DNA of 15,765 bases, taken from positions 1 through 15,765 of the forward strand of contig WTCI01000045.1 of the NCBI GenBank assembly GCA_013138655.1, read 5' to 3'. Below, one piece after another: positions 1-15,765 of the stretch. The notes beneath the pieces were generated by a model, which was not told where the DNA came from, made no database searches, and saw only the letters and a list, made by a program, of their open reading frames with translations. The translations under genes were made by a program, and so were the position numbers. Origin of the DNA: Desulfuromonadaceae bacterium (GTDB lineage: Bacteria > Desulfobacterota > Desulfuromonadia > Desulfuromonadales > Geopsychrobacteraceae). The stretch's first letter is position 1, and every line of letters starts with the position of its first letter.

Positions 1-3000
1 CAGCGCTGAGCCTGTTGTCGAAAAATGCCGGTCAAAACAGCTGGAGTACCCCGGATGGCAGTTTCTTTGCCCGCGGGGAATCCGCCGGGAACCTGGCGAT
101 GTTGTTTCCGGGGCAAGGGGCTCAGTATCCGGGCATGCTCAGGGACCTGGCGATCCAGTTTCCCCAATTTTTAAATGTCTTGCAGGTTGCAGATAACACT
201 CTTGCTGACAGGATGGATGGTCAGCTTTCAGGCCTGATCTATCCCCAACCAACGTTCGATGAACAGGCCCGAAGTGCCGTTGAGTCACACTTGCGCCAGA
301 CTGAGAACGCCCAACCGGCTCTCGGTGCGGTCAGCCTCGGTGCCAAGGCGGTGTTGGCAGGCTTCGGGATCAGTGCGGATGCTTATGCCGGTCACAGTTA
401 TGGGGAACTGACGGCTCTCTGTGCAGGCGGGGTCGTTGACCGGCCGACCCTGTTTGAGCTTTCGCGACTGCGGGGAGAATTGATGGCTGCCGGGCAGGGG
501 GACCTTGGTTCAATGCTCGCCGTTTCCGCCCCCTTGTCTCAGATAGAAACTGTTCTTGCTGAGGAACAATTGGATCTGGTTCTGGCCAACCGGAACACGC
601 CTGAACAGGGTGTTCTTTCCGGCGCAACCCGTGAAATTGAAAAAGCTGCATCGGTCCTGGAAAGACGGGGATTAAGATTCAAGCAACTTGCTGTTTCTGC
701 CGCTTTTCACAGTGCGCTGGTGGCAGGAGCCAGTGAGCCTTTTGCTGCGGCACTGTCAGATAAGTTGTTCGCCAAAGCAACAGCGAGTGTTTATTCGAAT
801 ACCACCGGCAAAATTTATCCGGCGGCAGAAAAGAATGCCAAAGAGTTACTCGCCGAACAGCTGGCAAAGCCGGTTGATTTTGTTGCGGAAATCGAAAATA
901 TGTACCGGGCGGGAATCCGGACCTTTGTCGAGGTCGGCCCCGGTGCCCGCATGACCGGGATGGTCAAGGCCATTTTGGGCGAACGTGAACATCATGCTTT
1001 TGCCATCGATTCATCAAACGGCCGGCGCTCGGGGATTCATGACCTGGCGCGTGTCCTTGCCCAACTGGCGACCCTGGGCTACAACGTCAAACTTGATCTC
1101 TGGGATGAGGGGTACCTGACCGGTGTAGAACAGAAACCGGACAAAAAACCTGGAATGACCGTCGCTATTTGTGGTGCCAACTATTTTAAGCCACCGAAAA
1201 AACGGCCCCCGATCAAGGAAAAGATCGCTGCTACAGCTGTCGCCCCTGCTGTATCGCAGGAGCGGAAGTCACCGCCTGAGACTGCTTCCCAGCCGGATTT
1301 GCAGGCACCCGGAATTTCTGCAAGCACTCCTGTGTTGCAGGATGCTTTGCGCATGACCCAGCAGAGTCTGCAGACATTGCAAAGTTTGCAGGAACAGACG
1401 GCAAGATTGCATCAGCAATTTCTTGAAGGGCAGCAGGCAGCGACCCAGTCATTTTTTAAACTGGTTGAGCAACAACGCCAGCTGGTTCAAGGTGTGCCGA
1501 CGAGCAATATTCCCCTGCCGACAGTGGTAACAACAGCCATTGCTCCCAGCCAGGAACCTGTCGTTACAATACCTCCCGCTGAAACTGAAATAACTGCACC
1601 CGTCGCAGAGGTCACTGCATCGGCGGCTCACTTCTCTGACGGGAAAGTTGCCGATGTTCTGTTAGAGGTGATTGCCGAGAAGACCGGCTATCCGGTGGAG
1701 ATGCTGGAACTTGAGATGGCCCTGGATACCGACCTGGGGATCGATTCGATCAAACGGGTGGAAATCCTCTCGGCTCTCCAGGAGAAGTTGCCCGAAGCTC
1801 CGGCAGTCAAGCCCGAAGATCTCGGGGTATTACAGACTCTTGGCCAGATTGTTGACCACCTGAACGCCGGCATGCCGGCAACGGGGACAGCGCCTGAGAA
1901 TAGTGCCGTCACGACGACAGCTCTGGATAGTCAGAAAGTTTCTTCGGCGTTGTTGGACGTGATTGCCGAGAAGACCGGTTATCCGGTGGAGATGCTGGAA
2001 CTTGAGATGGCCCTGGATACCGACCTGGGGATCGATTCGATCAAACGGGTGGAAATCCTCTCGGCACTTCAGGAAAGGCTTCCGGACGCCCCGGCCGTAA
2101 AGCCGGAAGATTTGGGGGTATTACAGACCCTCGGCCAGATCGTCGAGCACCTGAACTCAGGCGTGCTGAATGTCCAGTCGATATCGATGGCGGCAACGAC
2201 CGAGACGGCGGGCCATATGGACAACAGCCGGATTGCCCCCATCCTGTTAGAGGTCATTGCCGAGAAGACCGGTTATCCGGTGGAGATGCTGGAACTTGAG
2301 ATGGCCCTGGATACCGACCTGGGGATCGATTCGATCAAGCGGGTGGAAATCCTCTCGGCACTTCAGGAAAGGCTTCCGGACGCTCCGGCAGTGAAGCCGG
2401 AAGATTTGGCGGTGCTACAGACCTTGGGGCAAATTGTGGCACATTTGTCGGCGGGTGATCGTCAGGCGGTTTCTGCGAGTGCACCGACGGTCCCACAGTT
2501 GGGCCAGATTGATCGTGCCACAGTGGCGACAACTTTACTGGACGTGATTGCCGAGAAGACCGGTTACCCGGTGGAGATGCTGGAACTTGAGATGGCCCTG
2601 GATACCGACTTGGGGGTCGATTCGATCAAACGGGTGGAAATCCTCTCAGCGTTGCAGGAAAGACTTCCCGGTGCGCCGGCCATCAAACCTGAACATTTGG
2701 GAACCTTACAGACGGTGGCTCAAATTGTCGATTTCCTGGCCAGCGTGGCCGCGCCAACGACAGTTTCCACCTCTGCAGCTTCGGCTGAAACTGCGACCGG
2801 CACCGGGATTGACCGGCAGGTTTTGAAATTGGTGCCCCTGCCGACCGGTCCTGAGCGTTCCCGGTTCGAGCTTATCCCGGGGTCGGAGATCTGGGTGGCC
2901 GGGGAGCAGTCAGGACTCGCGGAGCGCATCTGTCAAGAATTTACAAGCCGTGGATTGAATGCTCATCAGGTGAATTTGACTGAGATTGACTCCCTTGTGC

Positions 3001-5174
3001 CACCACAAAATCTGGCAGGGTTGATCATATTAAGCCCGGTGTCGGGTGCAGATCACCAGTTTCTGAAAAATTCTTTCCGCTTACTGCAGCGGGTTGAGCC
3101 GGTGTTAACTGCCGGTGCTGAAAAACAGCCTGCCTTGTTGGCGACCATATCCCGGGTGAGTGGTGGTTTCGGTGTGATAGCCACCGAAAAAATCGCCGAT
3201 CCACTCTCAGGCGGGCTCGCCGGTCTGTGTAAAACGGCCGCCCACGAATGGCCGAAAGTCCACTGCAAAGCACTTGACCTGACTCCTGATCTGGAGATCA
3301 CAGACACGCTGGTGGAATCAATCGTTCAGGAACTGTTCACAGACGGGCCGCGGGAAGTCGGCATCAGTGCCAAGGGTTTGCAAACTCTGAAACTGTCAGC
3401 GTCTCCGGTTACGGCAGACGGCTTGTCGGTCCCGGTGGTAAAGGACGATCTCGTGATTATCAGTGGCGGAGCCCGTGGGGTCACGGCGCAAGTTGCGCTG
3501 GCTCTGGCCGAAGCCAGTCAGGCAACCTTGCTGTTGCTCGGACGCAGTCCGCTGCCTGACTCTGAGCCGGACTGGTTGCAAGGGCTGACAACCGAAACAG
3601 AAATTAAGCAGGCGGTGATGGCCAATGCCGCAACGCCACTCAAGCCCAAAGATGTCGCACAACGCTATCTGCAGATCAGTGGTCAGCGTGAAGTGCGGGA
3701 GAATGTCGCCCGCATCGAAGCTGCCGGCAGCCGGGTTATTTATCGCTCAGTTGATCTGCGTCAGAGCGCTGCTGTTGTGACTGTTGTTGACGAGGCACGT
3801 CGGCTATACGGGCCTGTCAAAGGCTTGATCCATGGTGCCGGGGTGCTGGCTGACCGTTTGATCAAGGACCAGACAGTTGAACAATTTGAGTCTGTTTATG
3901 CGACCAAAGTTGAAGGGCTGGATCATCTCCTCTCTGCTGTTGCCGATGACCCGTTGAATTTTATGGTGATGTTCTCCTCATCGACCGGACGCTTCGGCAG
4001 AACCGGACAGGTTGCTTATGCCGTCGCCAATGAGGTGCTGAATAAAATCGCTCAACAACAGGCCCAGTTGCGTCCCGATTGTCGGGTTCTTTCCCTGAAC
4101 TGGGGCCCTTGGGACGGTGGGATGGTGACCCCTGAGTTGAAAAAGGTTTTCGCCCGGGAAGGCATTGCGGTGATTGATCTGCGGGCAGGTGCCGAATACC
4201 TGGTTGAAGAAATTTCCACCCCGGCCGGTGGTCCGGTTGAGCTGGTGGTACTCGGCGGAGGGGAAGAGATTCAGAGCGAAACCGCAGGACAACCTCCACA
4301 GAATATTTACATCTCCAAGGCATTTGATCTCGACCTCAGCGTTGCACAGTATCCGTTTCTCAAATCGCATGTGCTCGATGGTAAAGCGGTTCTGCCTATG
4401 GCGGTCATTATTGAGTGGATGGCGCATGGTGCCATTCACAACAACCCCGGACTCAGGTTCCATGGTTTTAACGACATGCGTGTTCTCAAGGGGGTTATCC
4501 TGGAACCGGGACAAAGTAACAATCTGCAGGTCATGACCGGTAAGGCGATCAAGAGCGACGGGGTGCATGTTGTTCCGGTTGCGCTGTCCGGAATGACGGC
4601 TTCGGGGCAACCGTTCGTGCATGCCCGGGCGAAAATCGTTCTGGCGGCAAAACTGCCTGTTGGTAAAGCTCCGCTGGAACCGCTTGAATTGCCTGCATAC
4701 GCGAGGTCAATCGAAGAAATTTATATGTCTGACCGACTGTTCCACGGCACAGATTTCCAGGCAATCAGGGAAGTGCTCGGCTGTTCTGATGCCGGTATCA
4801 GCGCCCTGGTTTGTCCGGCTCCACAGCCGACGGAGTGGATTCAACAACCGTTGAGAAACTCCTGGTTGGCTGATCCGCTGGCCATCGACAGCAGTTTTCA
4901 ATTGATGATTCTCTGGAGTTTTGAACGCTATGGTGCCGGGTCTCTGCCGGTTTTTGTGGATCGATACCGTCAATACCGGGAATGTTATCCGGAAAACGGA
5001 GTCGAAATTCGCGTTCGAGTCACTGCGCAGGATGCCCATAAGGCCTCTGCAGACATCGATTTTCTTGATCCGCTAAGCGGCACACTGGTGGCACGTATCG
5101 AAGGGTACGAATGCGTCATTGATGCTTCACTCAATGCAAGCTTTCAACGGAATAAACTGCTGGGAGTTGCCTGA
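1..5174 (+). CDS. pfaA: PfaA/Pfa2-like PUFA synthase subunit, 5' partial: (KS missing)-MAT-ACPx4-KR-DH
   Basis: Iterative PUFA synthase subunit, cytosolic, carrying the growing chain from malonyl units. The frame is open to the window edge (codons start at position 3), so the TTG at 15 is not the true start; the family has a ketosynthase of about 450 residues before this point. Residues are numbered from nt 15. MAT about 27-345: GHSYGE with Ser128, malonate-binding Arg153 in RLRGELM, His232 in AAFHS, and EVGPG near the end. A Gln-rich helical linker covers about 443-493. Four ACPs carry DSIKR serines at 578, 675, 773 and 870. A structural then catalytic KR covers about 930-1400, with GGARGVTA near 1151 and Tyr1335 in AYAVAN. 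A polyketide-type DH covers about 1430-1700, with HxxxGxxxxP His1452 and DxxxQ Asp1625. All key residues seen are intact. The next gene starts 2 nt later, so the two are surely co-transcribed. Confidence 0.93.
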   Translation, partial: ALSLLSKNAGQNSWSTPDGSFFARGESAGNLAMLFPGQGAQYPGMLRDLAIQFPQFLNVLQVADNTLADRMDGQLSGLIYPQPTFDEQARSAVESHLRQTENAQPALGAVSLGAKAVLAGFGISADAYAGHSYGELTALCAGGVVDRPTLFELSRLRGELMAAGQGDLGSMLAVSAPLSQIETVLAEEQLDLVLANRNTPEQGVLSGATREIEKAASVLERRGLRFKQLAVSAAFHSALVAGASEPFAAALSDKLFAKATASVYSNTTGKIYPAAEKNAKELLAEQLAKPVDFVAEIENMYRAGIRTFVEVGPGARMTGMVKAILGEREHHAFAIDSSNGRRSGIHDLARVLAQLATLGYNVKLDLWDEGYLTGVEQKPDKKPGMTVAICGANYFKPPKKRPPIKEKIAATAVAPAVSQERKSPPETASQPDLQAPGISASTPVLQDALRMTQQSLQTLQSLQEQTARLHQQFLEGQQAATQSFFKLVEQQRQLVQGVPTSNIPLPTVVTTAIAPSQEPVVTIPPAETEITAPVAEVTASAAHFSDGKVADVLLEVIAEKTGYPVEMLELEMALDTDLGIDSIKRVEILSALQEKLPEAPAVKPEDLGVLQTLGQIVDHLNAGMPATGTAPENSAVTTTALDSQKVSSALLDVIAEKTGYPVEMLELEMALDTDLGIDSIKRVEILSALQERLPDAPAVKPEDLGVLQTLGQIVEHLNSGVLNVQSISMAATTETAGHMDNSRIAPILLEVIAEKTGYPVEMLELEMALDTDLGIDSIKRVEILSALQERLPDAPAVKPEDLAVLQTLGQIVAHLSAGDRQAVSASAPTVPQLGQIDRATVATTLLDVIAEKTGYPVEMLELEMALDTDLGVDSIKRVEILSALQERLPGAPAIKPEHLGTLQTVAQIVDFLASVAAPTTVSTSAASAETATGTGIDRQVLKLVPLPTGPERSRFELIPGSEIWVAGEQSGLAERICQEFTSRGLNAHQVNLTEIDSLVPPQNLAGLIILSPVSGADHQFLKNSFRLLQRVEPVLTAGAEKQPALLATISRVSGGFGVIATEKIADPLSGGLAGLCKTAAHEWPKVHCKALDLTPDLEITDTLVESIVQELFTDGPREVGISAKGLQTLKLSASPVTADGLSVPVVKDDLVIISGGARGVTAQVALALAEASQATLLLLGRSPLPDSEPDWLQGLTTETEIKQAVMANAATPLKPKDVAQRYLQISGQREVRENVARIEAAGSRVIYRSVDLRQSAAVVTVVDEARRLYGPVKGLIHGAGVLADRLIKDQTVEQFESVYATKVEGLDHLLSAVADDPLNFMVMFSSSTGRFGRTGQVAYAVANEVLNKIAQQQAQLRPDCRVLSLNWGPWDGGMVTPELKKVFAREGIAVIDLRAGAEYLVEEISTPAGGPVELVVLGGGEEIQSETAGQPPQNIYISKAFDLDLSVAQYPFLKSHVLDGKAVLPMAVIIEWMAHGAIHNNPGLRFHGFNDMRVLKGVILEPGQSNNLQVMTGKAIKSDGVHVVPVALSGMTASGQPFVHARAKIVLAAKLPVGKAPLEPLELPAYARSIEEIYMSDRLFHGTDFQAIREVLGCSDAGISALVCPAPQPTEWIQQPLRNSWLADPLAIDSSFQLMILWSFERYGAGSLPVFVDRYRQYRECYPENGVEIRVRVTAQDAHKASADIDFLDPLSGTLVARIEGYECVIDASLNASFQRNKLLGVA
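1671..2650 (+). repeat. Four tandem, near-identical ACP-coding repeats
   Basis: The 104-bp cores lie at 1671-1774, 1962-2065, 2256-2359 and 2547-2650, a period of 291-294 bp. Each codes for the front of an acyl carrier protein domain ending in LGIDSIKR or, in copy 4, LGVDSIKR; the Ser codons that would carry phosphopantetheine are at 1746, 2037, 2331 and 2622. By eye, copies 1 and 2 differ at one base in the core, copies 2 and 3 at one, and copy 4 differs from copy 2 at about four. Copies 2 and 3 also stay similar beyond the core. The linkers between copies are Ala/Thr/Ser/Pro-rich and diverged. Tandem ACPs are the hallmark of PUFA synthases, where the number of copies is known to affect yield rather than product identity. 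Confidence 0.95.
5162..5166 (+). promoter_or_regulatory. Ribosome binding site for the second megasynthase gene
   Basis: GGGAG lies inside the last codons of the preceding gene, 10 nt before the ATG at 5177. It supports that start and suggests translational coupling, because the upstream stop (TGA, 5172-5174) is only 2 nt away. Confidence 0.6.
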
Positions 5175-5176
5175 GC

Positions 5177-8100
5177 ATGAAGCACGGCAAGTCGGTTGCT
5201 ATTGTCGGGGTCGCTGGCATCTTTCCAAAGTCACCGACTCTGGAACAGTTTTGGGCCAACATCAAGGGGAATGTCAATACGGCGCAACTTCCTCCGTCGG
5301 GTCGCTGGTTGTTGGACCCGGATGAAGTTTATGCTTCGCAAATTGCGGCCCCCGATAAGGTTTACTCGAAAAAAGCCTGTTTCATCACTGATGAAACAGA
5401 TCCCTCCGCACTCTCTGCTCTGGCGATCGATGCCGATTTTCTCGGCAGCCTTGATCCCATGTATCGTCTGTTGCTGCAAGTTGGTCAAATGGCCTTCGTC
5501 GATGGCGTGGTTGAGGGGCTGGATCGTTCTAAAACCGGGGTCATTATCGGCAACCTGGCCTTACCGAGTGAAAAATCCTCGGCTCTGGCTCGTGAGTATC
5601 TGGGGCGGACCTTTGCGGAAAAACTGCTCGGTCCACAAACAGATCTGCCGCCGTTATCCATCAATCCATTGAACCGCTATGTGGCCGGTCTCCCCGCAGG
5701 CCTGCTTGCCAAAGCGCTCGGCCTCGGTGGAACCTGTTTCACCCTGGATGCAGCCTGTGCTTCTTCCCTCTATGCGATCAAGCTGGCGGTGGAAGAATTA
5801 GTTTCCGGTCGCGCTGATGCCATGTTGACCGGCGGCTTATCCCGTCCTGATTCCCTCTACACGCAAATGGGTTTCTCGCAGTTGCGGGCCCTGTCTCCCA
5901 GTGGAACCTGTTCTCCCTTCGACAAGCAGGGGAATGGATTGGTGGTCGGGGAGGGGTGTGGGATGTTCCTGCTGAAGCGGACGGAAGATGCGGTTCGTGC
6001 CGGTGATCATATTTATGCAGTTATCCGCGGCATCGGCTTGTCCAACGATCTTGGGGGCAGTTTGCTGGCCCCGGTTTCGGAAGGGCAGGTGCGGGCGATG
6101 CGCGCCGCTTACCGGCAAGCGGGCTGGTCTCCGACTGATGTTGATATGATCGAATGCCATGCGACCGGAACTCCCGTAGGTGACGCGGTTGAATTTGCCA
6201 GCATGAAAACGCTTTGGGGTGAACAGGGCTGGCGGCAGGGGCAGTGTATCATCGGTTCGGTCAAGTCGAATATCGGGCATTTGCTGACCGCAGCCGGTTC
6301 CGCTGCGCTGATGAAAACATTACTGGCATTAAAACATCAATCCTTGCCGCCGACGGCAAACTTTACGGCCCCGGCAGAAGACATTGATCTCGCCGGCAGC
6401 CCTTTCGCGTTGCTCAGTACCGCAAAGCCCTGGTCAGCCCGAAAAACCGGTCAACCGAGACGAGCAGCGGTAAGTGCTTTCGGTTTCGGTGGGATCAACG
6501 CCCATCTCTTGATTGAAGAATGGCTGCCGAAAAAGGCGAAGAAAAGTTCCGTTGCTTTTCACCCGTCATACCGGCAGAAAAAACAGCCGATAGCCATTGT
6601 CGGTATGGGGACACATTTTGGGATCTGGGATACCTTACGTCGATTCCAGCATCGCGTATTCGGCAACAATGAGCCGGTTGAGCCAAAAACTCCTGAACAT
6701 TTGTGGGGTGTTGAGCAGAGTCACTGGATTCAGCAGGCAGGACTGAATAAAAGCCGTTATTGCGGTTTTTTTGTACCGGAAGTCTCCGCACCTGTCGGCA
6801 AGTACCGTATCCCACCAAGTGAACTCGCTGAGATGCTGCCACGTCAGCTGCTCATGCTCAATGTCGCCGAGCAGGCATTGAACGATGCGGGTCTGAAGAA
6901 GGAAGACTTGTTGTTCACTGGTGTGTACGTTGGGGCCGGCCTGGACTTGAATGCGACCAATTTCAGCTTCCGCTGGGGTCTGCAAAAAATGGCTGAACAC
7001 TGGGCGGAACAACTCGGCCTTGATTTGTCGTCTGCAGAGTTCGCTGATTGGGTTGACGCTCTGCGTACTGCGGCCGGACCGCCATTGTCTGCCAATCGAA
7101 CCATGGGGGCACTCGGCAGTGTCGTTGCCAGCCGGATCGCCAAGGAATTTCGCATCGGTGGGCCGAGTTTTACCCTGTCGAGTGAAGAAAACTCTGGCTT
7201 GCGAGCGCTGGAAGTCGGCATCCATGCATTACAGGAAGGTTCGATAAACCGAGCCCTGATCGGTGCCGTCGATATGGCCGGAGACCTGCGCTCGGTACTT
7301 GGTCAACAAGCTGCCGGCATTTTTTCCGCCAAAGGCAGACTGAAGCCCTTTGCGAAAGATGCCGATGGTACCGTTGTCGGTGAGGGAGCCGCGGCCGTTG
7401 TTCTCAAACGTTTAGACGATGCGAAACAGGATGGCGATCACATCTACGCTGTTGTTAAAGGTATCGGTACGGCTGTCGGCGGGGACTGTGATTGCACCAT
7501 GCCGGAACCGCAAGTCTATCTTCAGGCGCTCGAACGGACCTGTCGGAATGCCAAAATCTCACCGGCAACGGTTTCCTATCTGGAAACAGCCGGGTGTGGT
7601 GTACCGCAGCAGGATGAACTTGAAGCGAATGCCCTTGGCGCTTTTTTCGGGACGGAAGCGAATTCCACTCGTTGCTTTGTCGGCAGTGTCAAAGCGGATA
7701 TCGGGCATGCCGGAGCGGCCGCGGGATTGGCCTCGCTGGTGAAGGCAGCGCTCTGCCTTGATCGACAAATCCTGCCCCCTCTTCGCAATGTGAAAAATCT
7801 GCGTTATGAATGGATTCGGGGGAAACGCCAATTTGTCCTCCCTGAGGCAACCCAATACTGGTTGCGGAACAGCGTCGATGGACCGCGTCGAGCCCTGGTC
7901 AGTTCCTTTTCTGTCGATGGGAGCTGTTCTCATGCCCTGCTGGAATCCTGGCACGGTGCCAAAAAACTCGCGCTGCCCCGCTTTGACCGGCCACTCGGTC
8001 CGCTGCATGAAGGTCTCTTCTCCCTGGAAGCTGATACGGTCTCAGAATTAGCAGAAAAAATTGCCAAGTGTCGGGAATTTCTCGCGGCTGAATTGCCGCA

Positions 8101-11100
8101 GCAGGTTGATCAGTTGGCAGCGCGCTGGCTGCAACTGTTCCCCCCGGACCGCGCAAAGAAACTATGTCTGGCCATGGTTGCCTCAAACCCGCAGGAACTG
8201 CTTGATCAACTGGATCATGCAGCAGCGTCTTTGCAGCAGGACCCGGCGCAGGCACTCGGTCAAAATGGCGGTTTGACGCTTTCTCCGGCTGTGCGGGATC
8301 GGATTTTTTATAGCTCTGAACCCCTCGCTCCAACAGGTAAAATTGCCTTTGTTTTTCCCGGTTCCGGTAATCATTACGCCGGAATGGGTCGAGAGCTTTC
8401 TGCTCTCTGGCCGGCAGTATTTGCCCGACAGGATCTTGTGAATCAGTCCCTGGAGAAACAATATCTTCCTGAGCATTTCTGGACAGAAACTCTGCATGAA
8501 ACTATCCACGATGACCATAATGCCCTGGTGATTTCGCATGTCGCGCTCTGTACGGCGTTGAGTGACCTGGTGCGCAGTTTTGGTATTGAGCCGCAGGCGG
8601 TCAGTGGCTACAGCTTGGGGGAATCCGCTGGACTTTTCTCAGCCAAGGCTTGGCAGGATCGTGATGGGATGCTGCAGCGCCTTGAGCAATCAAGCCTTTT
8701 TACCAAGGATCTGGCCGGTGAATGTAGCGCCGCCCGGGAAAGTTGGGGGCTGTCGGGAAATGAGCGGGTGGACTGGGACTTGGGGATAGTCAATGCCCCG
8801 GCAGCGGAAGTCAGAAAAAAACTTGCCGATAAAGACCGGGCGTACCTGCTGATTGTCAACACCTATCGTGAATCGGTGGTCGGTGGGGATCGGGCTCAGG
8901 TGGAACAGTTGGTCAATGAACTCGGTTGTCATTTCATCCGTTTAAGAGGTGTCACTACGGTGCATTGCCCGGTTGTCAAGCCGGTTGCCGAAGCGTATCG
9001 GGATTTGCATCTGTTTACCACAAAACCACCGGCGAAGATAACTTTTTACAGCTGTGCTCGCGGCAAAAATTATTTTGTGAATGCCGAGTCAGCAGCCGAT
9101 GTTATTCTTGCTCAGGCTCTCGATACCATAGATTACACCCAGGTCATAGAACAGGCTTATGCAGATGGGGCCCGTATTTTTCTGGAAGTCGGGCCGGGGA
9201 ATTCCTGCAGCCGGATGATCGGCAGCATTCTTGAAGACCGACCCCATCTGACGCGTCCCGTCTGCCCTCAGGGGGTGGATGCTGCCTCGGCGGTGTTGCG
9301 TCTGCTGGCACAGTGCCTGGCAGAAAGAGTGCCGGTGGATCTAACGGCCCTCTATCCTGAAAAACCGACAATTGAGACGAAAGCTTCCCCGCAGCCGCTG
9401 ATCAAAACAAGAATTGGTGGACAGCCGTTTGCGCCGCCACTGCCGCCGAAAAATAAACCGGTGACCGTCATGCCGATCGAACCGGCGGTTGAAGAGATTG
9501 CCGTTGAGCAAGGGTCGCGAGTTGTGGCACGAGGGAATGAAGAACCGATTGCGTCAACACAAAGCGATCCCTTATTGACACAACTTGCTGAAACAGCGGC
9601 TCTGAGTTCAGAAACGCACGCAGTTTACCTGACTTTTACCCAAACCATGGAGAAGACCCTCACCGAAAACATTGCGCTGCAGATGACTTTGCTACAGCAG
9701 CTGGTCGTCAATGGTGAAGCTTTCCCGGTGGTGCAACATGAACCGCTGCTGAAATCGCCAACCCCGGAACAGCCAGCCGTAGCATCCGTTATTTCAGCGC
9801 CGGTCACAGCTGACGTTGCTTTTGACCGGGCGATGTGCATGGAGTTTGCCATCGGCTCAGTGGCCAAAATGCTGGGTCCGGAATTCGCTGAAGTCGACAC
9901 CTACCCGACTCGGGTCCGTTTGCCGGATGAGCCGTTGATGCTGGTTGACCGGATATTAACGGTCGAAGGGGAAGCGCGATCGATGACCCGTGGCCGGGTG
10001 GTCACCGAGCATGACGTGACGGCTGATCGCTGGTATCTGGACGGAGGGCGGATGCCGACCTGCATCGCCGTTGAGGCCGGTCAGGCGGATCTGTTTCTCT
10101 CCGGTTATCTGGGTATTGATTTCATCAGCAAGGGGAAGGCGGTCTACCGACTGCTCGATGCCGTGGTCACTTTTCATCGTGCCCTGCCGGTCGCCGGTGA
10201 AACGATCCATTACGATATCAAGATCGATGATTTCTTCCGCCAGGATCAAACCTACCTGTTCCGTTTCAATTTTGAAGGAACGGTCAATGGCCAACCGCTG
10301 CTGTCGATGAAAGATGGTTGTGCCGGGTTCTTTACGGCCGAGGATCTTGCTGCCGGGCAGGGGATCGTTCACACCAAGCTGGACCTGTTGCCGCAGCCCG
10401 GGACGCTGCCGGATGACTGGCAGGATCTGTTGCCCATGGCCGTGGAGAGTTATGACGAGAAACAGATTGCGGCCCTTTATGCCGGTGATTTGCCTGCTTG
10501 CTTCGGCGAGAGTTTTGCCCACCTTGCGCTTAAGCAACCCTACACGCTGCCGGGCGGCAAGCTGAAACTGGTCGACCGGGTGGTTGAACTCAATCCCCGG
10601 GGCGGTCGCTACGGCATCGGCCAGATCATTGCTGAAATGGATATCAGCCCCGACGACTGGTTCCTCACGTGCCACTTTGTTGATGATCGGGTCATGCCCG
10701 GCACCCTGATGTACGAGTGTTGCATGCACACCCTGCGTATCTACCTGCTGCGCATGGGCTGGGTCGGCGAAGAGGGGACAACCTGGTGTGAGCCGGTTCC
10801 CGGAATCGACAGCGGCCTCAAGTGTCGCGGTCAGGTTGTCGAAACAACCAGGACAGTCACTTACCAGGTCAGTATCAAGGAGCTGGGTTATGGCCCTGAG
10901 CCTTTTGCGATCGTCGATGCACTGATGTTCGCCGACGGCAAGCCGATTGTGGAAATTCCCAACATGTCGGTACGGCTGTCCGGTCTCAACCGCCGACAGG
11001 TTGAAGTTTTATGGTCAGGGCAGGGGGGGCATCAAACGACGACTCCGCCTAAACCGATTCTTTACGATACTGAGCGGATTACTGCTTTTGCCATCGGCAA

Positions 11101-12133
11101 TCCTTCTGCTGCTTTTGGGGAACCTTATAAGATTTTTGACCAGGAACGGAAGATTGCTCGTTTGCCGGGTCCGCCGTTCCAGTTTTTGGACCGTATCGTC
11201 GCCATCGATGGTGAACCCTGGAAACTGGTCTCGGGGGCGACGGTAGAGGCTGAGTACGATGTCCCCCGGGATGCCTGGTATTTTTCGGCGAACCGGCAAA
11301 ATGAGATGCCGTTCAGCGTCCTGCTTGAAATCGGCTTGCAGCCCTGCGGCTGGCTGGCGGCTTACCTGGGCTCAGCTCTCACCAGCCCGATCGATTTGTC
11401 GTTCCGCAACCTGGACGGCAATGCCGTGCAGCATCGACCGGTGACAGCGGAATCGGGCACCCTGACCACTCATGTCAAAATTACCCGGATTGCCAGCAGT
11501 GGCGGTATGATTATTCAGGGTTATGATTTCGAGATCAGTGATTGTCACGGCCCGGTTTATACCGGTGATACCGTCTTCGGCTTCTTCTCTGCCGAATCTC
11601 TGGCACAGCAGGTCGGGGTGCAGGGGGCAACACTCTATCAGCCGAGTACGGAAGAACTTGCGCACGGTCAACAGTTTGCCTATCCGGCGGAAGATCCATT
11701 CCCCGAGAGCAAACTGCGCATGGTTGAGCGGATTGATCTCTATATTGCCGATGGAGGCAAGCATGGACTCGGTTTTATCCGCGGCACGAAAAAAGTTGAT
11801 CCTGATGAGTGGTTTTTCAAGGCTCACTTTTATCAGGATCCGGTTTGCCCCGGCTCCCTCGGACTTGAATCGTTCCTGCAGTTGCTCAAAGTTGCCGCCG
11901 TTAAGCGTTGGGGGGGCGGACCCGCGACGCGTTTTGAAACGATCGCGCTTGGCGTTAAGCACAGTTGGAATTACCGGGGGCAGATTGTCCCGACCAATGA
12001 TCTGGTGCAGATTGAAGCTGTCATTACCGCTGTGGATGACGAGCAGAGGCGGTTGACGGCTGATGGTTACCTGTCGGTCGATGGCAAAATCATCTATCAA
12101 TTGAATGATTTTTCCCTGCGATTACATTCCTGA
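5177..12133 (+). CDS. pfaC: PfaC/Pfa3-like PUFA synthase subunit: KS-CLF-AT-DH-DH
   Basis: 2318-residue PUFA synthase subunit for condensation, acyl transfer and the dehydration/isomerisation steps that set the double bonds. Domains: KS about 3-455 with triad Cys194 (DAACASS), His328 (CHATGTP), His368 (KSNIGH). CLF about 469-925 keeps the KS fold and KADIGH, but Glu671 replaces the Cys and ETAGCG replaces the first His motif. AT about 1054-1392 has FPGSGNHY, GYSLGES (Ser1146), His1263 and EVGPGNS. An Ala/Pro-rich linker with a short helix follows (about 1486-1510). Two FabA-like blocks each pair a His-less hotdog with an active one: His1833/Glu1847, then His2217/Glu2231. In Shewanella the AT is the separate PfaB; fusion as seen here is known from myxobacterial Pfa3, and the thraustochytrid OrfB is also KS-CLF-AT. 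No enoyl reductase or C-terminal glycerol-phosphate acyltransferase domain is present. The symbol pfaC is by closest role; pfa3 would also fit. Confidence 0.93.
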   Translation: MKHGKSVAIVGVAGIFPKSPTLEQFWANIKGNVNTAQLPPSGRWLLDPDEVYASQIAAPDKVYSKKACFITDETDPSALSALAIDADFLGSLDPMYRLLLQVGQMAFVDGVVEGLDRSKTGVIIGNLALPSEKSSALAREYLGRTFAEKLLGPQTDLPPLSINPLNRYVAGLPAGLLAKALGLGGTCFTLDAACASSLYAIKLAVEELVSGRADAMLTGGLSRPDSLYTQMGFSQLRALSPSGTCSPFDKQGNGLVVGEGCGMFLLKRTEDAVRAGDHIYAVIRGIGLSNDLGGSLLAPVSEGQVRAMRAAYRQAGWSPTDVDMIECHATGTPVGDAVEFASMKTLWGEQGWRQGQCIIGSVKSNIGHLLTAAGSAALMKTLLALKHQSLPPTANFTAPAEDIDLAGSPFALLSTAKPWSARKTGQPRRAAVSAFGFGGINAHLLIEEWLPKKAKKSSVAFHPSYRQKKQPIAIVGMGTHFGIWDTLRRFQHRVFGNNEPVEPKTPEHLWGVEQSHWIQQAGLNKSRYCGFFVPEVSAPVGKYRIPPSELAEMLPRQLLMLNVAEQALNDAGLKKEDLLFTGVYVGAGLDLNATNFSFRWGLQKMAEHWAEQLGLDLSSAEFADWVDALRTAAGPPLSANRTMGALGSVVASRIAKEFRIGGPSFTLSSEENSGLRALEVGIHALQEGSINRALIGAVDMAGDLRSVLGQQAAGIFSAKGRLKPFAKDADGTVVGEGAAAVVLKRLDDAKQDGDHIYAVVKGIGTAVGGDCDCTMPEPQVYLQALERTCRNAKISPATVSYLETAGCGVPQQDELEANALGAFFGTEANSTRCFVGSVKADIGHAGAAAGLASLVKAALCLDRQILPPLRNVKNLRYEWIRGKRQFVLPEATQYWLRNSVDGPRRALVSSFSVDGSCSHALLESWHGAKKLALPRFDRPLGPLHEGLFSLEADTVSELAEKIAKCREFLAAELPQQVDQLAARWLQLFPPDRAKKLCLAMVASNPQELLDQLDHAAASLQQDPAQALGQNGGLTLSPAVRDRIFYSSEPLAPTGKIAFVFPGSGNHYAGMGRELSALWPAVFARQDLVNQSLEKQYLPEHFWTETLHETIHDDHNALVISHVALCTALSDLVRSFGIEPQAVSGYSLGESAGLFSAKAWQDRDGMLQRLEQSSLFTKDLAGECSAARESWGLSGNERVDWDLGIVNAPAAEVRKKLADKDRAYLLIVNTYRESVVGGDRAQVEQLVNELGCHFIRLRGVTTVHCPVVKPVAEAYRDLHLFTTKPPAKITFYSCARGKNYFVNAESAADVILAQALDTIDYTQVIEQAYADGARIFLEVGPGNSCSRMIGSILEDRPHLTRPVCPQGVDAASAVLRLLAQCLAERVPVDLTALYPEKPTIETKASPQPLIKTRIGGQPFAPPLPPKNKPVTVMPIEPAVEEIAVEQGSRVVARGNEEPIASTQSDPLLTQLAETAALSSETHAVYLTFTQTMEKTLTENIALQMTLLQQLVVNGEAFPVVQHEPLLKSPTPEQPAVASVISAPVTADVAFDRAMCMEFAIGSVAKMLGPEFAEVDTYPTRVRLPDEPLMLVDRILTVEGEARSMTRGRVVTEHDVTADRWYLDGGRMPTCIAVEAGQADLFLSGYLGIDFISKGKAVYRLLDAVVTFHRALPVAGETIHYDIKIDDFFRQDQTYLFRFNFEGTVNGQPLLSMKDGCAGFFTAEDLAAGQGIVHTKLDLLPQPGTLPDDWQDLLPMAVESYDEKQIAALYAGDLPACFGESFAHLALKQPYTLPGGKLKLVDRVVELNPRGGRYGIGQIIAEMDISPDDWFLTCHFVDDRVMPGTLMYECCMHTLRIYLLRMGWVGEEGTTWCEPVPGIDSGLKCRGQVVETTRTVTYQVSIKELGYGPEPFAIVDALMFADGKPIVEIPNMSVRLSGLNRRQVEVLWSGQGGHQTTTPPKPILYDTERITAFAIGNPSAAFGEPYKIFDQERKIARLPGPPFQFLDRIVAIDGEPWKLVSGATVEAEYDVPRDAWYFSANRQNEMPFSVLLEIGLQPCGWLAAYLGSALTSPIDLSFRNLDGNAVQHRPVTAESGTLTTHVKITRIASSGGMIIQGYDFEISDCHGPVYTGDTVFGFFSAESLAQQVGVQGATLYQPSTEELAHGQQFAYPAEDPFPESKLRMVERIDLYIADGGKHGLGFIRGTKKVDPDEWFFKAHFYQDPVCPGSLGLESFLQLLKVAAVKRWGGGPATRFETIALGVKHSWNYRGQIVPTNDLVQIEAVITAVDDEQRRLTADGYLSVDGKIIYQLNDFSLRLHS

Positions 12134-12186
12134 CAAGTTTGAAACGTAGCTTTCGACGGGTTCCGGATGAAGGGTTTTCCGGATAT

Positions 12187-12216
12187 TTGATTCCTGCCTG
12201 CTGTCCATGTTACAAA
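12187..12216 (+). promoter_or_regulatory. Weak sigma70-like promoter candidate upstream of oleA
   Basis: TTGATT (12187-12192; 4 of 6 to TTGACA), an 18-nt spacer and TACAAA (12211-12216; 4 of 6 to TATAAT). It would start transcription near 12223 with a leader of about 70 nt. Matches of this quality occur by chance, so the call rests mostly on its location in the only gap of the cluster. Confidence 0.22.
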
Positions 12217-12285
12217 CTTAGCCCGATTTGGTCTGTTTTAATTGTTGTCGCTGTTCAGTAGAACCGAACACTTATCGTTTTAGCC

Positions 12286-12292
12286 GGTGGAG
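12286..12292 (+). promoter_or_regulatory. Ribosome binding site deciding the oleA start
   Basis: GGTGGAG overlaps an alternative in-frame GTG at 12287 and sits 3 nt before the ATG at 12296. It can pair with the 16S tail through GGTG, giving about 6 nt of spacing. Nothing similar precedes the GTG, so the ATG is preferred. Confidence 0.5.
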
Positions 12293-12295
12293 TTC

Positions 12296-13339
12296 ATGAA
12301 GTATTCAAGAGTCTATATCGAGTCAGTCGGCTACGAGCTGGCACCGATCGTTGTCACCTCGGCAGAGCTGGAAGCACGCTTGCAGCCCCTCTATGATGCC
12401 CTGCATATTGCTCCGGGTCAGTTGGAAGCCCTGACCGGCATCCGTGAGCGCCGCTGGTGGAAGCCGAACACACCGATTTCTTACGGGGCCATTGCGGCAG
12501 CGAAAAAATCGTTGCAAGAACGCAATATTTCTCCACAGGACCTCGGTGCAGTCGTTTATGCAGGCGTCTGCCGGGAACATTTTGAACCGGCCACGGCCTG
12601 TCAGGTTGCCGCTGCCCTCGGTGTGAAAGGGGATGTCGCGGTTTATGACACTTCCAACGCTTGTTTAGGAGTTCTCAACGGGGTTCTCGATATTGCCAAC
12701 CGTATTGAGCTGGGTCAGATTCGTGCCGGGCTGGTGGTCGCCTGTGAGAGTTCGCGGGAGATCAACGAAATCATGATTAAACGGATGCTTGAATCCCCCT
12801 CGATGGAGTTGTTCACAACGTCACTGGCGACACTGACCGGGGGGTCCGGAGCGGCAGCTGTGCTGTTAAGCGATGGCTCCTTTACGCCATCAAGACGCCC
12901 TAAACTATTGGGCGGGGTCAATCTTGCTGAACCGCAACATCACACCCTGTGCCGTTGGGGAATTAATACCGACTCTCCGGAAAATCATATTCCCTATATG
13001 CAGACCGATGCGGTTGCTGTCATGAAGCATGGTGTGGAACTGGGCAAGAGGACCTGGGAGGCCTTTGCCAGGGAACTGGACCTGACCACCGACAAGGTGG
13101 ACAAGGTCATCTGCCATCAAGTTGGCGAAGCGCATCAGAAGCTGATTCTGCAGTCCATCGGCATCTCAGCGGATAAAGATTTCACAACGTTTGAATTTCT
13201 CGGTAATATGGGAACCGTCTCGCTACCGATCACTGCGGCTATTGCGAAAGAGCGTGATGTGCTGTTGCCGGGGGACCTGGTCGGTTTTCTCGGTATCGGT
13301 AGCGGCTTGAACTGTTTGATGATGGGGATACAATGGTAA
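12296..13339 (+). CDS. oleA: OleA, thiolase-fold acyl condensing enzyme (beta-keto acid forming)
   Basis: Joins two fatty acyl thioesters head to head without decarboxylation to a 2-alkyl-3-keto acid, the first step of long-chain olefin synthesis; cytosolic. The protein is 347 residues from the ATG at 12296, a normal OleA length, and its N-terminus (MKYSRVYI) is as I remember for Shewanella-type OleA; the in-frame GTG at 12287 would add only three residues. Expected active-site residues are all visible: Glu97 (FEPATA), Cys123 (SNACLG), His274 (CHQVG) and Asn304 (LGNMGT). Spacings of 26 between Glu and Cys and 30 between His and Asn equal those of the characterised Xanthomonas enzyme. Glu97 separates OleA from ordinary FabH-type synthases. 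It begins 162 nt after the Pfa block, and its last 7 nt overlap oleB, so oleA and oleB are translationally coupled. The substrate is inferred to be the polyene made by the upstream genes. Confidence 0.93.
   Translation: MKYSRVYIESVGYELAPIVVTSAELEARLQPLYDALHIAPGQLEALTGIRERRWWKPNTPISYGAIAAAKKSLQERNISPQDLGAVVYAGVCREHFEPATACQVAAALGVKGDVAVYDTSNACLGVLNGVLDIANRIELGQIRAGLVVACESSREINEIMIKRMLESPSMELFTTSLATLTGGSGAAAVLLSDGSFTPSRRPKLLGGVNLAEPQHHTLCRWGINTDSPENHIPYMQTDAVAVMKHGVELGKRTWEAFARELDLTTDKVDKVICHQVGEAHQKLILQSIGISADKDFTTFEFLGNMGTVSLPITAAIAKERDVLLPGDLVGFLGIGSGLNCLMMGIQW
13324..13328 (+). promoter_or_regulatory. Ribosome binding site for oleB
   Basis: GGGGA lies inside the end of oleA, 4 nt before the ATG at 13333 and 10 nt before the ATG at 13339, which overlaps the oleA stop as TAATG. 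Either could be the real start; the proteins differ by two residues. Confidence 0.45.
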
Positions 13340-14241
13340 TGAGTTCATCTCTAATGAGCAGGGAATATCCCTTCGAAAGTCACTTCCTCGAGCTGGGTCG
13401 ACTGAAATACCATTATCTCGATGAAGGGCAGGGTGAGCCGGTGGTCATGCTGCACGGCAACCCTTCCTGGTCGTTCTATTATCGCCACCTGGCAAAAGAG
13501 TTGCGTGCTGATTACCGGGTCGTGGTGCCGGATCATATCGGCTGCGGACTGTCCGACAAGGTGGCCGATTCTCTTTACTCTTTTACCTTTGAACAGCGTG
13601 TTGATGATCTTGAAGCGTTGCTTGACCATCTCGATATCAAAAGCAATATCACTCTGGTTGTGCATGATTGGGGGGGGATGATCGGCATGACCTATGCTTC
13701 GAGATATCCGGAGCGGATTGCCCGCTTGGTGGTTCTCAACAGCGCTGCTTTTCATCTACCGGATGGCAAAAAGTTTCCCCTGGCTTTGAAAATCTGTCGT
13801 GAAACGCAGCTTGGAGCATTTCTGGTGCAGGGTTTCAATATGTTTGCCCGCGGTGCCGCGTTCGTCGGTTGCAAACGCAATCCGATGTCAACTGAACTGC
13901 GCAAAGCCTATTGCAGCCCTTATGATAATTGGCAACACCGTATTGCCACCCTGCGTTTTGTCCAGAACATCCCGCTGCAGCCGGAAGATTCCGGTTATGA
14001 CCTGGTCTCAGAAGTGGCCGCAGGGCTGCACCGCTTTGTCGATGTGCCGATGTGCATCTGCTGGGGAGAGAAGGATTTTGTTTTTGACCGTTCCTTCCTG
14101 GCCGAGTGGCGGCGGCGTTTTCCCAAGGCCGAAGTCCATTCATTTGCCGATTGCGGGCATTATATCCTCGAAGATGCCAAGGATGAGGTCATTCCGATCA
14201 TCGGCAAGTTCCTGTCTGATCATCCACTCAAGGCTAAATAA
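13333..14241 (+). CDS. oleB: OleB, alpha/beta hydrolase, beta-lactone decarboxylase
   Basis: Converts the cis-beta-lactone made by OleC into a cis-olefin and CO2, the last step of the pathway. 302 residues with a haloalkane dehalogenase-like fold: HGNPSWSF oxyanion segment near 36-43, DHIGCGLSD, nucleophile Asp112 in HDWGG (Asp rather than Ser, as in OleB and haloalkane dehalogenases), a candidate acid at Asp248 in GEKDFVF and catalytic His276 in CGHYILED. No signal peptide or membrane segment is apparent. Known OleB proteins join OleC and OleD in large assemblies, which fits the tight gene order here. The start at 13333 overlaps oleA by 7 nt; 13339 or 13354 are alternatives. A haloalkane dehalogenase is the other possible reading, but the position between oleA and oleC makes OleB much more likely. 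Confidence 0.92.
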   Translation: MVMSSSLMSREYPFESHFLELGRLKYHYLDEGQGEPVVMLHGNPSWSFYYRHLAKELRADYRVVVPDHIGCGLSDKVADSLYSFTFEQRVDDLEALLDHLDIKSNITLVVHDWGGMIGMTYASRYPERIARLVVLNSAAFHLPDGKKFPLALKICRETQLGAFLVQGFNMFARGAAFVGCKRNPMSTELRKAYCSPYDNWQHRIATLRFVQNIPLQPEDSGYDLVSEVAAGLHRFVDVPMCICWGEKDFVFDRSFLAEWRRRFPKAEVHSFADCGHYILEDAKDEVIPIIGKFLSDHPLKAK

Positions 14242-14243
14242 GT

Positions 14244-15765
14244 ATGAGTTCCGGCGCGTTGACCAACATTGCGGCACACCTGCCGGAGATGGCTCGCCGG
14301 CAACCGGAAACTCCAGCACTCTACATTCCCATGGGGCGGGATCATCAATACCGTCAATACAGCTTTCAACAGCTTGATCAGGAGAGCAACCGGATCGCTC
14401 ATGGGTTGGAATCGATCGGCATTTGCCGCGGTGTGCGCACGGCATTGATGGTCAAACCGGGGCTTGAATTTTTTGCCCTGACCTTTGCCCTGTTTAAAGT
14501 CGGTGCCGTGCCGGTACTGATCGATCCCGGCATGGGAGTCAAGAACCTCAAAACCTGCCTGGCCGAAGCGGAGCCGGAAGCTTTTATCGGCATTCCCAAG
14601 GCCCACATTGCCCGCTTGCTGCTCGGCTGGGGGAAGGAGACCATCAAGACCCTGCTGACCGTCGGGACAAAATTGTTCTGGGGCGGGAGCAGTCTTCAGC
14701 AACTGGTGGCGCCGATTCCACCTGAGCGTCCTTACACGATGGCAGCGACCACCAGCGACGAACCCGCCGCCATTCTTTTTACCAGCGGCAGCACCGGTGT
14801 TCCCAAAGGGGTGGTTTACAGTCACGGGAACTTTGTCGCCCAGGTCGAGCAGTTGCAACAGATCTATGACATTCGCCCCGGCGAGATCGACCTGCCGACC
14901 TTTCCGCTGTTTGCCCTGTTCGCTCCGGCATTGGGTATGAGTTCCGTGATTCCCGTGATGGATTTCACCCGTCCGGGCTCGGTCGATCCACGCAATATCA
15001 TCGACCCGATTCAGCGATTTAATATCACGACCATGTTCGGTTCTCCGGCGCTGATCAATCGGGTCGGAACTTACGGCCGGAAAAACAATATTCAGCTGCC
15101 GTCTTTGAAGCGGGCGATTTCGGCCGGAGCGCCTGTTCCCGCCGTGGTTCTTGAACGTTTTACCACGCTGCTTGCGGACGGTGTCCAGGTCTATACACCT
15201 TATGGTGCGACCGAATCATTACCGGTCTGTTCCATCGGAAGCGCTGAAATTCTCAACGACACTCGCTTTGCGCCCGACCGGGGAAAGGGGTTTGCATCGG
15301 CAAGCCGGTCCCCGGCATTCACCTGGAGATCATCCAGATCAGCGATGAGCCGATCGAAACCTGGCAGGATGACTTGAGAGTTGCCGAGGGGGTCATTGGC
15401 GAGATTGTCATAAAAGGACCGCAAGTCACCCGTCGTTATTACAATCGTCCGGAATCAACCCTGCTGGCCAAAATTGATGATCCGCAAAACAGCGATTTTT
15501 ATCATCGTATGGGGGATCTCGGTTATCGTGATGCGCAGGGGCGGATCTGGTTCTGCGGCCGCAAGTCACATCGGGTCAGCGGTGCCGGGGAAACCCTTTA
15601 TACCATTCCCTGCGAAGCGATTTTCAATACCCACGGGAAGGTGTTCCGTTCGGCACTGGTCGGTGTCGGTGTTCCCGGAAAGATCCGGCCGGTCCTTTGT
15701 GTCGAATTGGAAAGGGTGTTGAGAAGACAGAGCATGTTCAAATTCTTGCGGAACTGCGTCAGATC
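14244..15765 (+). CDS. oleC: OleC, AMP-dependent beta-lactone synthetase; frame-broken twice and 3' partial
   Basis: ANL-superfamily adenylating enzyme that activates the 2-alkyl-3-hydroxy acid with ATP and closes it to a beta-lactone. It starts 2 nt after oleB, with a weak AAGG 10 nt before the ATG. Residues 180-189 form the P-loop TSGSTGVPKG; PYGATES follows near 319-325. The first frame ends at a TGA at 15375-15377 after 377 residues, but its last 30 or so residues are nonsense for the family. From about 15284 the family sequence continues in the -1 frame (VCIGKPVPG, MGDLGY at about 15509, WFCGRKSHRV, YTIPCEAIFN, ALVGVG, VLCVELE) up to about 15712, where it appears to shift again by -1 and continue to the window end (EHVQILAELRQI). 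Restoring one base at each place gives one open frame. Sequencing error or real decay cannot be told apart here. The C-terminal part carrying the usual catalytic Lys lies outside. Confidence 0.88.
15281..15290 (+). other. Frameshift site 1 in oleC (purine run, one base short)
   Basis: The run GGGAAAGGGG. Upstream, the frame with codons starting at multiples of 3 codes for OleC up to APDRGKG; downstream, OleC continues in the -1 frame with VCIGKPVPG. One extra G in the final run, or one ribosomal slip of -1 on the in-frame heptamer G GGA AAG, gives exactly the same joined protein. Confidence 0.85.
15709..15716 (+). other. Probable frameshift site 2 in oleC (purine run, one base short)
   Basis: The run GGAAAGGG. 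Before it, the frame reads VLCVELE; after it that frame gives a Arg/Phe/Cys-rich tail, while the -1 frame gives KGVEKTEHVQILAELRQI, a plausible amphipathic C-terminal helix for an adenylating enzyme. One extra A or G would restore the frame. Only about 50 nt of downstream sequence is available, so this is less certain than site 1. Confidence 0.6.

Follow-up and report, generated by a model that had tools for sequence, protein, structure and literature searches.

A draft genome of a Desulfuromonadaceae bacterium (GCA_013138655.1; 2.45 Mb, 364 contigs, 93% complete) contains a contig of 15,765 bp, C218, which has been analysed in its entirety and is referred to here as the window. Its nearest named loci, which come from Desulfuromonadales drafts and Malonomonas rubra, point to the order Desulfuromonadales. 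On its plus strand, the window carries in order pfaA, pfaC, oleA, oleB and oleC, that is, genes for a Pfa-type lipid synthase followed by genes for olefin synthesis (Table 1). The contig ends truncate pfaA at its 5' side and oleC at its 3' side. An initial annotation had named pfaA-like and pfaC-like genes followed by oleA, oleB and oleC on one strand, and all five are present as described. Because these five adjoining genes have long family matches, a chance reading of the cluster is implausible. Points that go beyond that annotation are the division of oleC between two reading frames, a pfaB-type acyltransferase inside pfaC, and the fact that the window is a complete contig.

Table 1. Features of the pfa-ole cluster in the window.
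Feature	Position	Strand	Basis
pfaA, 5' end missing at contig edge	3..5174	+	NCBIfam, Pfam, motif positions
pfaC, predicted pfaBC fusion	5177..12133	+	FabA and pfaB_fam matches; motifs
Spacer between pfaC and oleA, 153 bp	12134..12286	.	Open reading frame listing
oleA, head-to-head acyl condensing enzyme	12287..13339	+	NF006720; residues aligned to crystal sequence
oleB, alpha/beta hydrolase, haloalkane-dehalogenase-like	13333..14241	+	Fold and position; 7-bp overlap with the end of oleA
oleC, first reading frame, N-terminal part, olefin beta-lactone synthetase-like	14244..15377	+	Models; M. rubra alignment
oleC, second reading frame, ends at contig edge	15281..15765	+	Models; M. rubra alignment

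The available part of PfaA scores 1069 bits against the NCBIfam model omega_3_PfaA, for which the cut-off is 1010. Its motifs define one malonyl/acyltransferase (AT) domain with GHSYG at residue 130, four tandem acyl carrier proteins (ACPs) with LGxDS at residues 578, 675, 773 and 870, a ketoreductase, and a dehydratase of the polyketide synthase type. The ketosynthase (KS) domain matching the missing start of PfaA has been located on another contig of the same genome, C201. By its domain content, the pfaC product is predicted to be a PfaBC fusion, the hallmark of the published Type I clusters. It consists of a KS with the active-site Cys in DAACAS, a chain-length factor that lacks this Cys, an AT resembling PfaB that retains its Ser in GYSLG, and four hot-dog units, seen as four stretches matched by the FabA model. 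When the units are read by eye, the His/PG motif is found in units 2 and 4 and is missing from units 1 and 3. The AT scores 108 bits against pfaB_fam, below a cut-off of 144 that is set for the whole protein.

The contig C201 also encodes PfaD (525.8 bits, cut-off 449). Over 385 residues, this protein is 78% identical to a 533-residue protein encoded directly upstream of pfaA in a relative, G004. On C201, the start of pfaA lies ~40 bp past the pfaD stop, so that pfaD lies directly before pfaA. The 3' end of C201 (L105 2800-3223) aligns to positions 1-424 of the window over 424 bp at 94.3% identity. The flanks had been proposed as the place to look for pfaD, and the gene is indeed found above cut-off on an overlapping contig. 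From this overlap, pfaD is placed before pfaA, though C201 may belong to a closely related strain. An overlap at 94.3% identity, rather than an exact one, between two contigs of the same draft suggests a strain mixture in the draft.

OleA matches the model NF006720 at 475 bits (cut-off 285), and the PDB entries closest to it in sequence are 3row, 3s21 and 5vxh, which we take to be Xanthomonas OleA. Residues Cys126, Glu100, His277 and Asn307 align with identical residues of the OleA crystal sequence, and Glu100, His277 and Asn307 presumably have catalytic roles. The catalytic Cys is named Cys123 in the OleA used in PMC6463001. OleB owes its name to its fold and its place in the cluster: the best NCBIfam match of this protein, a haloalkane dehalogenase model, reaches 164 bits against a cut-off of 241, and no OleB model is found among the best 25 of 29 families. 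As a family, OleB proteins are beta-lactone decarboxylases. The first and second pieces of OleC match olefin beta-lactone synthetase models at 416 and 141 bits, respectively, where the whole-protein cut-offs are 850 and 900. The 557-residue OleC of M. rubra aligns to positions 14244-15290 at 77.9% identity and, in the other frame, to positions 15281-15751 at 66.2%.

The spacer between pfaC and oleA contains no open reading frame of at least 80 amino acids. The thioesterase gene pfaT, which lies between the two operons in Photobacterium profundum, has been considered for this gap and rejected on that ground. In seven loci of the Desulfuromusa type (L039, L040, L043, L052, L053, L058 and L061), the pfaC-oleA gap holds a gene for a dihydrolipoyl-dehydrogenase-like flavoprotein (8520-9902 in L040). 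The same gene precedes oleA in L037 and L044.

The conservation of this neighbourhood has been examined in a scan of 69 OleA loci, which is by design biased to near relatives. In 52 loci, the C-terminus of PfaC precedes OleA on the same strand, at a distance of up to 400 bp in 39, of 401-4000 bp in 11, and further away in two. Among the other 17, nine have at least 4 kb of upstream sequence lacking PfaC and eight have too little to tell. The order PfaC, OleA, OleB, OleC, OleD and phosphopantetheinyl transferase (PPTase) occurs in 35 of the 69 loci. This set is complete in all four drafts of Gemmatimonadetes/Longimicrobiales (L092-L095) and in two (L086 and L088) of the seven planctomycete-type loci (L086-L091 and L098). 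A literature search limited to one library found no title on Gemmatimonadetes pfa-ole clusters. The plasmid search with OleA returned 47 records, every one below 60% identity. Other arrangements have been observed as well. In L070, oleA (141-1397) stands alone on one strand, and relatives of oleB, oleC and oleD occupy the opposite strand at a distance of ~6 kb (7217-10773). In L074 (2858-9855; genome G028), the PfaC frame is broken and oleA to oleD are open.

The joint presence of PfaC and OleA has been surveyed in 98 genomes (this one and 97 relatives) from 46 genera. OleA was counted as present at ~200 bits or more among the matches listed, with weaker FabH-like matches dropped, and PfaC at E values up to 1e-80, a threshold at which short PfaC fragments could be missed. 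Both proteins occur in 46 genomes, PfaC without OleA in four, OleA without PfaC in one, and neither in 47 (OleA in 47 and PfaC in 50 in total). At the level of genera, the corresponding numbers are 22, 1, 1 and 22, an agreement in 44 of 46. Fisher tests on this co-occurrence take no account of common ancestry, and their p-values should be read with that reservation. OleC, checked in nine chosen genomes, is present in six.

Where both proteins occur, they are encoded on the same contig in 36 of the 46 genomes, separated by 7 bp to 11 kb, and on different contigs in 10. The two sets clearly lie at separate loci in G044, G048, G064 and G074, and probably in G076, where OleA is encoded 142 kb inside a contig that lacks PfaC. 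The sequence preceding oleA, 10.4 kb in G037 and 5.7 kb in G068, contains no PfaC. Contig ends cut the pfaC/oleA region in G001, G039 and G094; in G039, linkage is likely, as both contig ends carry successive parts of one gap gene. The initial annotation had looked to relatives for a conserved pfa-ole neighbourhood and had held that relatives with these Pfa genes and no ole genes nearby would refute its reading. The neighbourhood is found in 52 of the 69 scanned loci, and such relatives exist too, namely the four genomes with clearly separate loci and G002, in which the 350 bp after pfaC (L116 3365-3716) soon diverge from the window and carry no oleA. Linkage is common but not required, and joint presence is nearly constant.

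We consider it likely that the window encodes a secondary-lipid (Pfa) synthase of Type I which, together with the adjoining ole operon, forms a pathway to a polyene hydrocarbon. This reading draws on gene content, gene order, aligned active-site residues and co-occurrence in relatives, from which we infer that the Pfa and Ole proteins cooperate in this organism. A polyunsaturated acyl chain would be assembled in an oxygen-independent manner on the tandem ACPs by PfaA, the PfaBC fusion and PfaD, and OleA would join two such chains head to head. The Ole steps then run in the order OleD, OleC, OleB. OleD would reduce the keto acid, OleC would form a beta-lactone and OleB would remove CO2 to leave a long polyene hydrocarbon. 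If Geobacter bemidjiensis is taken as the model, two 16:4 chains would probably yield C31:9 as the product. Chain length is not readable from sequence, and production of eicosapentaenoic acid (EPA) or docosahexaenoic acid (DHA) by the lineage is not decidable from it either.

The coupling of the two sets, proposed in the initial annotation, is upheld by the joint presence of PfaC and OleA with only five discordant genomes, by the position of PfaC upstream of OleA in most loci, and by experiments in E. coli, where OleA takes chains made by Pfa and the combination of OleA and Pfa yields a 31:8 ketone (PMC6463001). The distances of OleA and of the PfaC C-terminus are also correlated (r = 0.93 for 46 sequences including the window, a value reached in 0 of 999 permutations), much of which is expected from shared descent. 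The further step in that annotation, to a dedicated hydrocarbon pathway, does not follow from physical linkage alone. In P. profundum SS9 the pfa and ole operons are adjacent, EPA is made and C31:9 is undetectable (PMC6463001). Since adjacent operons occur there without detectable C31:9, linkage does not prove flux.

Apart from P. profundum SS9, several observations weigh against the hydrocarbon pathway proposed here. The co-occurrence of the two proteins and the correlation of their distances partly reflect shared descent. The 24 mismatches in the overlap with C201 leave room for that contig to come from a co-assembled strain. The oleC frame breaks near positions 15281-15290, beside a G-run and ~475 bp from the contig end; this may be an assembly error or a true mutation, and in the latter case the strain could have a broken pathway. 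The own assembly contains no close OleD ortholog (the best match has 30% identity), and the PPTase of M. rubra gave no match there in a search run without a positive control. Even the full-length M. rubra proteins fall short of the models built on Shewanella/Xanthomonas enzymes, OleC with 695 (cut-off 850) and 677 (cut-off 900), and OleD with 461 and 440 (cut-off 580). M. rubra OleC and OleD are homologs of the Shewanella/Xanthomonas enzymes, and the curated models do not certify their exact function.

The four genomes with PfaC and without OleA (G002, G023, G026 and G084) belong on the same side. They have been examined as a possible refutation of the coupling. In G084, OleC is present and PfaC is cut by the contig end. 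The G026 contig stops in a gene that shares 80% identity with the one immediately preceding oleA in L048, and its assembly yielded no OleC and no strong OleA. G023 has a PfaC fragment of only 3 kb, with a contig break at or near the site, and no OleC match. G002 poses a problem: it is the closest relative by PfaC (97% protein identity), yet in its assembly, which is 84% complete, OleC gave no match and OleA no strong one. The sequence after pfaC in G002 contains an element of 168 bp that is bounded by perfect inverted repeats of 22 bp.

The best surviving alternative, which we regard as unlikely, is that the cluster serves two ends, with Pfa making EPA- or DHA-like acids for phospholipid and OleA diverting only a part of the chains, as in Shewanella. 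PfaB influences the final product, and the PfaB-like AT in the PfaC of the window retains its Ser. Cold raises both EPA and C31:9 in S. pealeana and S. oneidensis, and P. profundum SS9, with its adjacent operons, makes EPA (PMC6463001). On the other hand, some bacteria, including strict anaerobes, make C31:9 without long-chain polyunsaturated fatty acids (PUFAs; PMC4882568). PfaC occurs without OleA in only four of 50 genomes, and Pfam finds no glycerolipid acyltransferase domain in the six proteins of the window.

It is less likely still, and in our view improbable, that the pathway is decaying here, with oleC frameshifted and oleD and the PPTase gene lost. The broken oleC frame, the searches of the assembly for OleD and PPTase, and the state of G002 with its inverted-repeat element after pfaC can all be read in this way. 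Against decay, the oleC break lies beside a G-run near a contig end in a draft of 364 contigs, the available part of pfaA and all of pfaC, oleA and oleB are open, and G002 is incomplete. The missing genes would sit just beyond the contig end. OleD and a PPTase-family gene directly follow oleC in M. rubra and in many other loci, and we infer the same position for oleD and the PPTase gene here. As to the suggestion that oleD be looked for in the flanks, many relatives have it after oleC, and the search of the own assembly found no close match.

A chance neighbourhood, in which OleA condenses ordinary fatty-acid-synthase chains beside pfa, is highly improbable: OleA homologs can use chains from either source (PMC6463001), but the presence of PfaC and OleA agrees across nearly all genera, genomes with physically separate loci included, and OleA of PUFA-making species has been reported to take the Pfa-derived chain only (PMC6463001).

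Within the hydrocarbon pathway, a stronger proposal can be made, namely that in this bacterial order the Pfa synthase is an obligate supplier of Ole, and not a PUFA synthase from which Ole merely branches off, and that both sets are gained and lost together whether linked or unlinked. We consider this proposal evenly balanced. If it is true, the hydrocarbon would be the original or sole product of this type of Pfa. Shared presence and absence, even where the sets are unlinked, makes the question of whether the hydrocarbon is the real product testable in cultured carriers. The cluster is real, was correctly read in outline by the initial annotation, and is of a kind already described. What the present work contributes to this known link between two lipid pathways is a further genome and a survey covering 97 relatives.

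In Shewanella, the pfa and ole sets lie at separate loci. The cluster of the window resembles the Shewanella pfaABCDE and oleABCD sets in that the same enzyme families are present and are coupled through OleA. It differs in that pfaB is separate in Shewanella, where five genes, pfaABCDE, are found. The location of pfa and ole genes varies with the host (PMC6463001). P. profundum SS9 is similar in having neighbouring pfa and ole operons, and differs in that pfaT lies between them and no C31:9 is detected; here, pfaC and oleA are separated by 153 bp without an open reading frame of 80 amino acids.

Novelty or rarity of the linkage has not been borne out and is rejected, since PMC3098273, PMC4882568 and PMC6463001 all describe such linkage. 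Type I clusters have been reported in Desulfuromonas acetoxidans, Pelobacter propionicus, several Geobacter and Gemmata (PMC3098273; Shulse and Allen 2011). The authors noted that ole genes are often linked to Type I clusters and proposed that the Type I synthase may supply the olefin precursors. The window agrees with these clusters in having pfaA and a predicted pfaBC fusion, as in related bacteria, with linked ole genes; nothing essential sets it apart, except that here the oleC frame is broken and the contig does not extend to oleD. The OleA proteins of the Geobacter-type loci L076-L085 are 64-67% identical. G. bemidjiensis makes C31H46 (PMC3098273), also given as C31:9, and has a cluster with the tandem order pfaD, A, B, C, oleA, B, C, D, pfaE; pfa genes have been concluded to be likely to serve primarily for the production of such hydrocarbons (PMC4882568). 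The paper lists pfaB and pfaC apart, whereas they form one gene here, and the comparison is one of gene order and not of sequence. As far as the contig reaches, the gene order in the window is the same as in G. bemidjiensis.

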